From Olsenella profusa F0195 (GTDB taxonomy: Bacteria; Actinomycetota; Coriobacteriia; Coriobacteriales; Atopobiaceae), in contig NZ_AWEZ01000020.1 in the NCBI RefSeq assembly GCF_000468755.1, forward strand, positions 1-64,000: a stretch of DNA of 64,000 bases, in the 5' to 3' direction. The number at the start of each line of letters is the position of its first letter. Within the stretch, counting starts at the first letter, position 1. The translations under genes were made by a program, and so were the position numbers. This document shows positions 7,774 through 62,459 of the stretch, piece by piece. The notes beneath the pieces were generated by a model, which was not told the origin of the DNA, ran no database searches, and was given only the letters and a program-made list of their open reading frames with translations.

Positions 7774-9285
7774 GTGAGCGACCTTTCCACCTGCCCCACC
7801 AACGCAGCAGCCAGCGATGGCGACACCCCGCACGACGAGTGCGGCGTCTTTGGCGTCTGGGCCCCCGGGCGCGACGTCGCCCGCATGACGTACTTCGCAC
7901 TGCGTGCGCTGCAGCACCGCGGCCAGGAGTCCGCCGGCATCGCCGTGGGCAACGGCGACACCGTGCTCGTACGCAAAGACCTTGGCCTGGTGACGCAGGT
8001 GTTCTCGGATGCCGACCTCTCGGCCATGCCAGGCAGGGTCGCCATCGGGCACGTGCGCTATGGCACGGCTGGCGCCAAGGGCTGGGAGTCCTCGCAGCCG
8101 CACCTCTCCACCATCGACGACGTGATCATCGCGCTGGCGCACAATGGCACGCTCGTCAACTTCGACGCCCTGCGCCGCGAGCTCATCGAGATGGGCATCC
8201 CCTTCCGCTCCAACACCGACTCCGAGGTGGCGGCCAAGCTCATCGGCTACTTCACCGTGCGCGCCGGACGCCTGCGCTCCGGCATCGCACACACCATGCA
8301 CCTGCTCGAGGGCGGCTATGCCATCGTGCTCGTGCGCGAGAACGCGCTCTACGCCTTCCGCGACCCGCACGGCATCCGTCCGCTCGTGCTGGGTCGGCTG
8401 GACGGCGACGGCTGGGCCGTCGCCAGCGAGACCTGCGCCCTCGACATCGTGGGCGCCACGTTCGTGCGCGAGGTGATCCCAGGGGAGATCGTCCGCATCT
8501 CCGAGGATGGCCTGAGGTCCGAGGCGGGTCTCGAGCCGCTGCCGCCAGCCCACTGCATCTTCGAGCATGTGTACTTCTCGCGTCCCGACTCCGTCCAAGA
8601 TGGCTCGTCGTTCTACAAGATGCGCCACGACATGGGCCGCCGCCTGGCGCGCGAGACCCCCGTAGACGCGGATCTCGTGATCAGCGTCCCCGACTCCGGT
8701 ACGCCCGCAGCGGAGGGCTTTGCCGCCGAACTGGGCCTTCCCTACGGGACGGGTCTCATCAAGAACCGCTACGTGGCGCGCACCTTCATCCAACCCACCC
8801 AGGAGCTGCGCCAGCTGGGCGTGCGCCTCAAGCTCAACGCCCTGCCCGACGCCGTGGCCGGCAAGCGCCTGGTGATGGTGGACGACTCCATCGTACGCGG
8901 CACCACCTCCAAGCAGATCGTGCGCATGCTGCGCAACGCCGGTGCCACCGAGGTGCACGTGCGCAGCGCCTCCCCCATGGTCATGTGGCCCTGCTTCTAT
9001 GGCATCGACACGGCCGACCAGGATCAGCTCATCGCGGCCAACATGTCCCTCGAGGAGATTCGCGGCTACATCGGCGCGGACTCGCTGGGCTTCCTCTCCA
9101 CGAAGGGCCTGCTCGACGTGGTGCCCGTCAACGGCTACTGCACGGCCTGCTTTACGGGCGCCTATCCCGTGGAGATTCCCGAGTCGTTCTATAGGGACAA
9201 GTTCCCGCCCGGCAACCGTCCTCACAACCTGTCAAACGCCTCGGCGACCTCACGGATGTCCATCGACGAGGTGGTCGCAGAGTAA
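7774..9285 (+). CDS. purF: Amidophosphoribosyltransferase PurF
   Basis: This 503-aa enzyme makes phosphoribosylamine from PRPP and glutamine, the first step of purine synthesis. A short propeptide ends before Cys23 (DECGVFGV), the N-terminal glutaminase nucleophile. The glutaminase domain has LQHRGQESAG and the phosphoribosyltransferase domain the PRPP loop VMVDDSIVRGTTS. Cysteines in PAHCIF, WPCFYG and GYCTAC match the iron-sulfur-containing PurF class. The start is GTG at 7774 with GAAGGG upstream. It stands alone, without other pur genes in the window. Confidence 0.96.
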   Translation: MSDLSTCPTNAAASDGDTPHDECGVFGVWAPGRDVARMTYFALRALQHRGQESAGIAVGNGDTVLVRKDLGLVTQVFSDADLSAMPGRVAIGHVRYGTAGAKGWESSQPHLSTIDDVIIALAHNGTLVNFDALRRELIEMGIPFRSNTDSEVAAKLIGYFTVRAGRLRSGIAHTMHLLEGGYAIVLVRENALYAFRDPHGIRPLVLGRLDGDGWAVASETCALDIVGATFVREVIPGEIVRISEDGLRSEAGLEPLPPAHCIFEHVYFSRPDSVQDGSSFYKMRHDMGRRLARETPVDADLVISVPDSGTPAAEGFAAELGLPYGTGLIKNRYVARTFIQPTQELRQLGVRLKLNALPDAVAGKRLVMVDDSIVRGTTSKQIVRMLRNAGATEVHVRSASPMVMWPCFYGIDTADQDQLIAANMSLEEIRGYIGADSLGFLSTKGLLDVVPVNGYCTACFTGAYPVEIPESFYRDKFPPGNRPHNLSNASATSRMSIDEVVAE

Positions 9286-9352: not shown

Positions 9353-9521
9353 GTCGTGTGGGTGCTTGTCGCATGCCCTGTGGGTGCCATTCTCTGCGTG
9401 TGGGTGCTTATCGCATATTTCCACCTCCGCCGAACTGGGGTTTTATCGGTCTGTTCCGGGAGAAAAGCACCTACATGAATCGATTGGCACCCACAGAGGT
9501 GAAGAAAGACACCCACATGAC
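9353..9521. repeat. Mirror-symmetric array of six TGTGGGTGC-type motifs
   Basis: Three direct TGTGGGTGC motifs start at 9357, 9379 and 9399. Three inverted copies (GCACCTACA, GCACCCACA, ACACCCACA) start at 9467, 9487 and 9509. The spacings are 22 and 20 on the left and 20 and 22 on the right, and all three motif pairs share one centre at 9437. The arms (about 9353-9416 and 9458-9521) are diverged inverted repeats with matching bases between motifs too. It lies between the convergent ends of purF and the SDR gene. It could be a long imperfect hairpin, a MITE-like remnant or a protein-binding array. Confidence 0.75.
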
Positions 9522-9578
9522 GAGGGCAGCGGCATATCAGCGGCGGCTATCAGCAGTGACGCGTGAGCGGCAGCTACC

Positions 9579-9606
9579 GGCAGCACCACGTCGGCAGCAC
9601 CACGTC
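9579..9606. repeat. 14-bp tandem duplication
   Basis: GGCAGCACCACGTC occurs twice without a gap, and a third partial copy (GGCAGCGCACC) follows. It sits in the same purF-SDR intergenic region, just right of the mirror array. No function can be assigned. Confidence 0.7.
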
Positions 9607-9663: not shown

Positions 9664-10446
9664 CTACAGCCTGCGCAGGCCCTCCCAGCCCCACATGAGG
9701 ATGGGGTCAGGTATCACCTTGGCCAGGATGCGTAGGATGGCGCCCGTCACGCAGCAGGTGGCGATGGGATAGTTGCAGCGGTTGACCAGCATCGACCACC
9801 AGGCGACCCTGCGCGGCGAGAGGGTCGGCATGGGATGCCGTACCGTGGTGCCGTTCGCCGTCCGCCGTGCCACGTCCATGAACTCCGTGCGTATCCATAT
9901 GGGACAGACCGCCGTCACGAAGATGCCCCGCCCGCGCAGCTCGAAGCGGAGCGACCGCGTGTAGCTGCGCACGAACACCTTGCTGGCCGCATACACGCCC
10001 AGCCCCGGGAGCGGCGCGAACGATGCCGTCGAGGCAACCTGCAGGATGCGGCTCCCCCGCCGCATGAGCGGCAGGCACAGCTGCGTCATGTCCACGAGCA
10101 CACCACAGTTGAGCCGCACCATGCCGTCCACCTCGACACGGCTGAGGTCGTCGCAGGTACCGAACTTGCCAAAGCCCGCCGCGTTCACGAGCAGCCCCAC
10201 AGAGAGCCCCGCCCGCTCCCGGGTGGCCTGCGCGAGCAGGGCCTCCATCCTGTCCATGGCATCAGGCGCAAGCAGGTCGAGTGCCACCACCCGCGTGGGG
10301 ACGCCCAGTTCGGCGGCGAGCTCGCGCAGGCGATCCTCGCGCCGGGCGATGAGCCAGAGCTCCTCGTAGCGCCCGCTTCCGGCGGCGATGCGCGCATACT
10401 CCCTGCCCAGCCCGCTCGATGCTCCCGTTATGATCGCAATGCCCAT
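9664..10446 (-). CDS. SDR family NAD(P)-dependent oxidoreductase
   Basis: The protein is 260 aa with the classical short-chain dehydrogenase pattern: cofactor loop TGASSGLG near residues 8-15, an NAAG-type motif (VNAAGFGKFG), an active-site Ser in the QVASTASFAPL stretch and the catalytic pair in YAASK. It should reduce or oxidise a small carbonyl or alcohol substrate in the cytoplasm. It is convergent with purF across the repeat region and divergent from the ATP-grasp gene. The specific substrate cannot be read from the sequence. Confidence 0.9.
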   Translation of the reverse strand: MGIAIITGASSGLGREYARIAAGSGRYEELWLIARREDRLRELAAELGVPTRVVALDLLAPDAMDRMEALLAQATRERAGLSVGLLVNAAGFGKFGTCDDLSRVEVDGMVRLNCGVLVDMTQLCLPLMRRGSRILQVASTASFAPLPGLGVYAASKVFVRSYTRSLRFELRGRGIFVTAVCPIWIRTEFMDVARRTANGTTVRHPMPTLSPRRVAWWSMLVNRCNYPIATCCVTGAILRILAKVIPDPILMWGWEGLRRL

Positions 10447-61005: not shown

Positions 61006-61175
61006 GCATGCGGACCTCCGGCACATACGCTAAAGGCCTCTAACGATTGCTCGAGCCGATCGTGATGAACACCACGGTGCACGTTAGACGCAAGGAAACC
61101 GGAGCATATCAAGACATTACACGGCAATCGGACCATCCTTGTGCTGCATATAACCACGCACTAAAATTACGACCA
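61006..61175. other. Intergenic DNA before the TPP riboswitch
   Basis: No gene is visible. The stretch is AT-richer towards 61160 (CACTAAAATTACG), where the promoter of the riboswitch transcript should lie. Confidence 0.4.
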
Positions 61176-61264
61176 ATGGGGAGCTCGCGAGATGCGGGCT
61201 GAGAGGGAGCGTATGCCCGCTCCGACCCTATGAACCTGATGCGGGTAATGCCGTCGAAGGGAGT
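61176..61264 (+). ncRNA. TPP riboswitch (thi box)
   Basis: The conserved THI-box parts are present in order: GGGGAGC at the 5' side, GGGCTGAGAGGG, GACCCTATGAACCTGATG and GGGTAATGCCGTCGAAGGGA. This matches the thiamine pyrophosphate aptamer. Its 3' arm contains AAGGGAG, which is the ribosome site of the next gene, so ligand binding should hide it and block translation. Confidence 0.95.
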
Positions 61265-61268
61265 GCGT

Positions 61269-62459
61269 ATGTCGCAGCCACGCGTTTTGTCCTCTTCGAA
61301 ATTGGGATGGGTCTGGTTCGGGGCAGCCGTGTCCCTTGCCGAGATCCTCACGGGAACGTTCTTCGCCCCGCTCGGATTCGAGATGGGTATAGCCGCCATC
61401 CTTGTGGGTCACGTCATTGGATGTGCGTTGTTCTACCTGGTAGGCTTCGTCAGTGCGAAAACCGGCGAGTCGGCCATGGAAGTCGCGAACCGCTCGTTCG
61501 GCCGTTTCGGTGCCGATGCGTTTTCCATTGCGAACGTGATCCAGCTCATTGGTTGGACGGCCATCATGATCATGTCCGGTGCTACGGCCGCCACATTGCT
61601 GATGCCACAGCTGGGCGTGGCAGGTTGGAGCGTCATCATAGGCGCGCTCATCGTGCTGTGGATCGCCATCGGTATGAAGAAGATGGGCACGGTGCAATCG
61701 ATTGCCGCCATCGTACTAGTGGCGCTCACGTTCGCGGTGAGCTTCGTCGTATTTGGCGACAGCACCAAAGCCTCTGCGGTGAGCGCCGAGAACCTGTCAT
61801 TCGGCGCGGCAATCGAGCTGGCTGCTGCGATGCCGCTTTCATGGCTGCCCGTTGCGGGCGACTACCTGTGCACCGCCAAGAGGCCAGCGGCCGGCACCAC
61901 GCTCGCTACTGGCGCGTACTTCATCGGAAGCTGCTGGATGTTCGCTATCGGGCTGGGATGCGCGCTGTTTGCCGGGTCGGACGATGTCGCCACCGTGCTG
62001 GCGCAGTCGGGCATGGGCGCTGTGGGCATTCTCGTCGTTGTGATTTCCACGGTGACTACCACGTTCCTCGACGCGCAATCCGCTGGCGTATCTGCCGAAT
62101 CCATCCATCCACGCCTGCACGCGCGCGTCTGCGGCATCGCGGCAGCCGTTATTGGCTGCGTACTGGCCATCGTGGCCCCGGTGGGCGACTTCGAGGGGTT
62201 CCTGTACCTCATCGGCTCGGTGTTCGCGCCAATGGCGACCATCGTGTGCGTGAATTATTTCGTGCTGCACCGCAACCGCGCGGGCGTGCGCATTGATTGG
62301 CACAACGTGGTGCTGTGGCTGCTCGGATTTGGACTGTATCGTCTCTCGCTCGATTGGGTGCTTCCATGCGGCAATACGCTGCCCGTGATGGCAATCATCG
62401 CCATCACGGCAGTCGTGATTGACGTCATCGAGCGGAAGATGCGCCGACAGTGTGCGTAA
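61269..62459 (+). CDS. cytX: Hydroxymethylpyrimidine transporter CytX-like (NCS1 family)
   Basis: This 396-aa membrane protein has about twelve hydrophobic helices and belongs to the NCS1 nucleobase transporter family. TPP-riboswitch control points to the CytX group, proposed to import the thiamine precursor hydroxymethylpyrimidine. The start at 61269 follows AAGGGAG; the longer frame start lies inside the riboswitch. It is monocistronic here. Confidence 0.9.
   Translation: MSQPRVLSSSKLGWVWFGAAVSLAEILTGTFFAPLGFEMGIAAILVGHVIGCALFYLVGFVSAKTGESAMEVANRSFGRFGADAFSIANVIQLIGWTAIMIMSGATAATLLMPQLGVAGWSVIIGALIVLWIAIGMKKMGTVQSIAAIVLVALTFAVSFVVFGDSTKASAVSAENLSFGAAIELAAAMPLSWLPVAGDYLCTAKRPAAGTTLATGAYFIGSCWMFAIGLGCALFAGSDDVATVLAQSGMGAVGILVVVISTVTTTFLDAQSAGVSAESIHPRLHARVCGIAAAVIGCVLAIVAPVGDFEGFLYLIGSVFAPMATIVCVNYFVLHRNRAGVRIDWHNVVLWLLGFGLYRLSLDWVLPCGNTLPVMAIIAITAVVIDVIERKMRRQCA

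Follow-up and report, generated by a model that had tools for sequence, protein, structure and literature searches.

The array between purF and the SDR gene

The window, by which we mean the whole stretch of 64,000 nucleotides that was analysed, carries in one of its intergenic gaps a set of short motifs arranged in two arms that face each other across a core. The gap lies between two convergent genes, purF and a gene for an SDR-type oxidoreductase. An earlier note on this DNA had described six motifs with spacings of 22/20 and 20/22 about a common centre at 9437, and both the positions and the spacings were confirmed. The features are as follows, with coordinates counted in the window:

7774..9285, + strand: purF (amidophosphoribosyltransferase), convergent neighbour, name from the earlier note
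9357..9517, no strand: whole array, 161 bp, consisting of a left arm of 3 units, the 59-bp core and a right arm of 3 units
9379..9495, no strand: minimal element, 117 bp (core and two units on each side), common to nearly all copies, model match 2.0e-25
9357..9365, + strand: left arm motif 3, TGTGGGTGC, exact, next motif at 22 bp
9379..9387, + strand: left arm motif 2, TGTGGGTGC, exact, inner motif at 20 bp
9399..9407, + strand: left arm inner motif, TGTGGGTGC, exact
9408..9466, + strand: core, 59 bp, with the asymmetric centre GAACTGGGGTTTT at 9432-9444
9467..9475, − strand: right arm inner motif, GCACCTACA, 1 mismatch
9487..9495, − strand: right arm motif 2, GCACCCACA, exact
9509..9517, − strand: right arm motif 3, ACACCCACA, 1 mismatch
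9664..10446, − strand: SDR-type oxidoreductase gene, convergent neighbour, name from the earlier note

Two tandem motif pairs were seen in the window, both of them in the array, compared with 0.06 ± 0.24 expected from the dinucleotide-shuffled window. The centre of the window core, GAACTGGGGTTTT (9432-9444), is the counterpart of the family-consensus GACCTGCGGTTTT, the target of an IS1111-type element in other copies. Beyond the array edge, at 9578-9605, CGGCAGCACCACGT stands twice in tandem (14 bp each), and elsewhere in the window a TPP riboswitch lies at 61167-61280 (61.5 bits).

A dispersed family with fixed geometry

The window's own genome (G000; 2.72 Mb in 73 contigs) was searched with a 191-bp stretch as the query, which returned 61 matching pieces on many contigs. 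After the loci were collected, these came to about 34 arrays, one of them interrupted by an insertion sequence. Another genome of this species (G002; a single contig, 2.617 Mb) contained about 33 arrays, mostly at orthologous positions. A search pattern in which 59-61 bases separate two motifs from two inverted motifs had 23 exact matches, while its reversed control had 0. This recurrence of the geometry across the genome is the decisive evidence that the array is not due to chance. The earlier note had counted uniqueness, and loss of the symmetry in other strains, against its own proposal; the array is not unique in its own genome, and the symmetry is retained in most of the orthologous copies of G002. 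All of the approximately 34 copies are intergenic, with 0 inside called genes.

The rule of the family is that tandem TGTGGGTGC units form two inverted arms around a core that hardly ever departs from 59 bp. From one innermost motif to the other the distance is 68 bp in nearly all copies, the exceptions being C45, which has a 58-bp core, and C69:149, which has a small insertion. Within the arms, the inner motif pair is spaced 20 bp in 60 of 61 arms, and the next interval outward is mostly 20, 21 or 22 bp. The mirrored order reported for the window copy is thus a rule of the family as far as its symmetry goes, but the exact mirroring of the intervals is partly a coincidence, given this latitude in the outer step. 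Arms contain 1-8 units and the arrays span 97-243 bp. At one locus (L025:3372-3610) the right arm has eight units, mostly with the same spacer cggcccgattc, and the same array in G002 is 60 bp (three units) shorter.

When 30 copies were oriented by their asymmetric core, they aligned gap-free across 117 columns, with pairwise identities of 0.94 in the motif, 0.61 in the spacers and 0.63 in the core. Each unit consists of TGTGGGTGC and a spacer that is AT-rich and then ends in G/C, and the units lie on one helix face. The core starts with TTTCTCCCG (ATCGCAT instead in a subfamily to which the window copy belongs), has GCGACCTGCGGTTTTGT at its centre and ends with CGGGAGAAA. Such conservation of motif, orientation and spacing is the pattern of putative DNA recognition sites. 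Like MITEs, the copies are short, dispersed, non-coding and multicopy, and have inverted termini with defined edges, TGTGGGTGC...GCACCCACA. Like BOX-type elements, they combine fixed and variably repeated modules, here a 117-bp centre and 1-8 units per arm with whole-unit differences between strains. Like IS21-type end pairs, they have ends that are inverted and carry at least two direct repeats each, with the 20-bp step noted above.

Differences between strains and genomes

Arrays gain and lose whole units: about 7 of about 26 orthologous arrays differed between G000 and G002 by multiples of approximately 20 bp. The L029 array was inverted as a block between the strains. At L018/L064, the strains differ by 5.6 kb with the breakpoint at an array edge, for which recombination between two arrays is the best reading. 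G002 lacks the purF-SDR array and retains one degenerate unit in the intergenic stretch. The conservation in relatives on which the earlier note had staked its proposal is found at most other loci, which are orthologous, but not at the copy it described. Because most loci are common to both strains, there is no clear recent insertion.

One pair of copies, L009a and L009b, is 97.8% identical over a stretch of exactly 138 bp that opens on the first T of the outer TGTGGGTGC and closes on the last A of the outer GCACCCACA. Their flanks share no homology. The stretch is a discrete unit that was copied, either through transposition or through gene conversion from one array to another. Flanking homology is absent from most copies, and the pairs L009b/L009c and L015a/L015b have duplicated flanks common to both members. 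At the array edges, flank matches of the kind left by target-site duplication (k = 2-9) were not in excess, and palindromic flanks were examined and rejected. The regions between neighbouring arrays, considered as cassettes, had no gene content in common.

The rate of change between strains was similar in motifs and flanks (0.68% vs 0.74%, a comparison of low power with three mosaic loci excluded), as one would expect if the DNA was inserted and is not functional. Purifying selection on the motifs was rejected; its initial P of 0.004 vanished once the three mosaic loci were excluded.

A sequence-only model of the 117-bp unit was then used for a search of 397 genomes of the order, and it matched in three, namely G000, G002 and G120 (Olsenella sp. 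Marseille-P4559, Atopobiaceae). The two arrays of G120 both lie inside an island of LXG-toxin and Imm33-immunity genes, parts of which match a G000 stretch at 97-98% identity, and at L023 the homology of the island between G000 and G120 also ends within an array. Among congeners, PurF proteins reach only 75-77% identity; set against this, the identity of the island makes it most likely that the G120 arrays travelled with it. The island is a case of recent horizontal transfer between the G000 and G120 lineages. Its sites are C69:1-9900 in G000 (L097, L023) and C1:35000-43000 in G120 (L086), and it is shared between two genera with arrays aboard.

No arrays were found in three congeners. Inverted tandem arrays were also scanned for independently of the motif. 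The scan recovered 24 loci in 113 kb of G000 array regions, and the 400 kb covered in either of two congeners yielded one isolated hit apiece and no equivalent family. Arrays were also sought in plasmids and phages, where there were none, and in viral contigs, where one search found none and another only unrelated simple or coding repeats. Array-pattern searches of genome collections gave 0 and 1 match. In the library and collections covered by the searches, the repeat family is undescribed.

The interrupted array is L028, where a 1.6-kb element encoding an IS110-family transposase divides the core (G000 C50; L028:2080-3730). The transposase matched the profiles NF033542 (142 bits, cut-off 140), PF02371 and PF01548. 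Both G002 copies of this element (L087, L088) also lie within array cores, giving 3/3 copies in cores. These represent two independent sites, because the C50 and 1589-kb copies are orthologous. The intact target, in the orientation of the transposase gene, is GGCGACC^TGCGGTTTTGTG. Downstream of that gene, in non-coding DNA, AAAACCGCA is followed by GACCTGAC, and AAAACCGCA precedes GACCTG. The segments thus stand with the top-strand complement first and the bottom-strand match second, which is the order reported for IS1111-family seekRNAs (PMC11187229). The element also has subterminal inverted repeats, ATGTTCATCGGC/GCCGACGAACAT, so that its transposase, its downstream guide segments for the two strands and its repeats are all those of an IS1111-type element. 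Among the 30 aligned cores, the 13-nt target occurs once exactly and in 18 more with one or two mismatches. A candidate RNA-guided IS1111-type element, with guide segments that match the core, is therefore seen to land in the array centre. Known relatives of such elements target REP sequences and attC sites (PMC1525189, PMC11187229).

Possible origin and role of the arrays

We favour, at a probability of roughly 0.55, the reading that the window array is a copy of a lineage-specific, non-autonomous and modular mobile-type repeat (MITE/BOX-like). The dispersed intergenic copies, the exact-edged 138-bp pair, the contrast between motif and spacer and the restriction to one species argue for it. 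Rows of approximately 20-bp units, facing each other across the fixed 59-bp core, would be bound by an agent that is likeliest to be a DNA-binding recombinase or transposase multimerising along the arms, as at the multi-repeat ends of IS21, Mu and Tn7-type elements. This agent would copy the unit as a whole, with the outer motifs as its ends. Today the family would be mostly immobile and would act as a substrate for recombination and slippage. We infer both the binding of the units by protein and dispersal by transposition in preference to gene conversion.

An IS21 element resident in G000 (istA, istB; C6, L014:2980-5620) has inverted ends with tandem (A/G)TCGGTGC-like units of approximately 22-23 bp. 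IS21 ends are built of direct repeats in which AT-rich DNA lies between GC-rich blocks, two repeats being needed at each end (PMC10122671). However, among the IS21/rve loci examined in the genomes studied, none had TGTGGGTGC units at its ends, and half arrays beside a transposase, sought in G000 and G002, were limited to the IS110-family insertions in the core. For these reasons, together with the absence of a RAYT, the mobile reading is held no higher than the figure given. It is also opposed by the geometry, which is strictest in the centre, whereas a model of transposon ends predicts this for the outer tips. The identity of the 138-bp pair could come from gene conversion between existing arrays, and neither target-site duplication, a TGTGGGTGC-ended transposon nor a clear recent insertion was found. 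Two proposals of the earlier note have thus survived in part. That of a MITE-like element is borne out by the number of dispersed copies and by the 138-bp copy edged at the outer motifs, but not by any target-site duplication or mobiliser. That of a binding array for a multimeric protein fits the anatomy of conserved motif, free spacer, helical phasing and fixed centre, which is suggestive of such sites.

A different reading is that the arrays benefit the host, with a chromosome-organising or nucleoid-occlusion-like protein polymerising along the arms, joining across the core and marking the non-terminus chromosome. In G002, dnaA lies at 739 kb and its antipode at 2.048 Mb; the terminus was placed by this antipode and by a coding-strand switch at approximately 2.15-2.23 Mb in the samples read. 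All 33 arrays lie outside 1.679-2.491 Mb, leaving an 812-kb gap, a third of the chromosome, that is centred near the antipode and in which IS21/rve-type transposase matches do occur (3/12). The gap was noticed post hoc, and its P depends on how neighbours are merged, at 0.0003 for 33 points and 0.0065 with clusters within 10 kb merged, but 0.11 with 30-kb merging. The fixed core, the helically phased units and the always intergenic location also fit a host role, and in E. coli, SlmA sites occur in greater numbers close to the origin (PMC4117426). The void thus makes a chromosome-organising role possible. Against it counts that the family is lacking in three congeners and in almost all of the order, that the samples of two congeners contain no substitute arrays, and that the single purF copy was lost in another strain. 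Furthermore, constraint on the motif between strains is not seen without the mosaic loci. On balance, we consider a host role unlikely. In a bolder form of this idea, the arrays would be putative platforms of a lineage-specific protein forming two opposed filaments that meet at the core and mark the non-terminus chromosome, e.g. for nucleoid occlusion or chromosome layout, and the IS1111-type element would be programmed to use them as safe landing sites; this is speculative and rather improbable.

It is also improbable that the arrays are a passive satellite, spread by segmental duplication, slippage and gene conversion alone without a dedicated mobiliser. The duplicated flanks at L009b/L009c and L015a/L015b, the unit changes in 20-bp steps at about 7/26 loci and the position of arrays at rearrangement breakpoints are all consistent with such processes. 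However, most copies lack flanking homology, and since the motif is conserved while the spacers are free and the geometry is fixed, a sequence-specific selector is required.

A long RNA hairpin had been proposed as well, and a hairpin, terminator or small RNA in which the inverted arms fold in the transcript is very unlikely. Both strands do fold stably, the window copy reaching −105 kcal/mol (z −6.6) on the + strand and −89 kcal/mol (z −3.8) on the − strand, but any inverted repeat folds, which explains these values, and pairing across copies lends the hairpin no support. Standard pairs between the arms of the 30 copies amounted to 72.8%, lower than the 73.9% obtained with shuffled partners. 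This level was reached by 493 of 500 shuffles, no other pairing measure rose above the shuffles, and the covariation term was −0.11. The left and right spacers were less complementary within an element (0.488) than between elements (0.537). Because the arms do not covary, the arrays form a DNA-site array and not a selected RNA hairpin; structured RNA was rejected since compensatory base changes were not found. No Rfam family searched matched at the array. The genes around the arrays were convergent in 7 cases, tandem in 16 and divergent in 5 (chi-square P 0.27 vs other gaps), and for this lack of a clear convergent preference a terminator or promoter role was also rejected.

A REP/REPIN element mobilised by a RAYT (Y1 transposase) is scarcely tenable and was rejected: the arrays are intergenic and inverted and receive an IS1111-type element as REPs do, but PF01797 occurs in 0/3 array-bearing genomes (G000, G002, G120) vs 5/14 controls, and the arms have neither covariation nor a conserved stem.

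The arrays are a compact case in which to study the origin and spread of multi-site DNA arrays that have no obvious transposase. Their geometry is unusually precise, and breakpoints of an inversion, of a deletion and of the exchange of a toxin island all fall at them. The IS1111-type element would be a natural example of an RNA-guided element with guide segments matching a host repeat, and the terminus-free distribution makes a role in chromosome organisation directly testable.

The known proteins Noc and SlmA bind short, single sites. The arrays are dispersed as these sites are and may, like them, be sparse far from the origin or near the terminus, and they differ in being long and in occurring in one species. 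With REP/REPIN sequences (PMC1525189, PMC11187229) they share the form of intergenic inverted repeats that serve as specific targets of IS110/IS1111-type elements, but they are without RAYT, their arms are not selected to pair and their copies are far fewer. The ends of IS21, Mu and Tn7 (PMC10122671) are similar in being inverted, in consisting each of two or more direct repeats that span about two turns of the helix, in having GC-rich blocks around an AT-rich middle and in their 5'-TG...CA-3' edges. In contrast to these, the arrays hold 59 bp between the arms and no transposase gene, have no target duplication and are most strictly spaced at the centre, not the tips; their motif also differs from that of the resident IS21 element. 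From the BOX elements of S. pneumoniae (boxA-boxBn-boxC; PMC3049150) the arrays differ in architecture: their variable 20-bp modules lie in two inverted arms outside a fixed core and not between end modules. Both, however, are small dispersed composites with variable tandem modules, and BOX, like the arrays, was expanded in one lineage, is now apparently dormant and is thought to be non-autonomous mobile DNA (PMC3049150).
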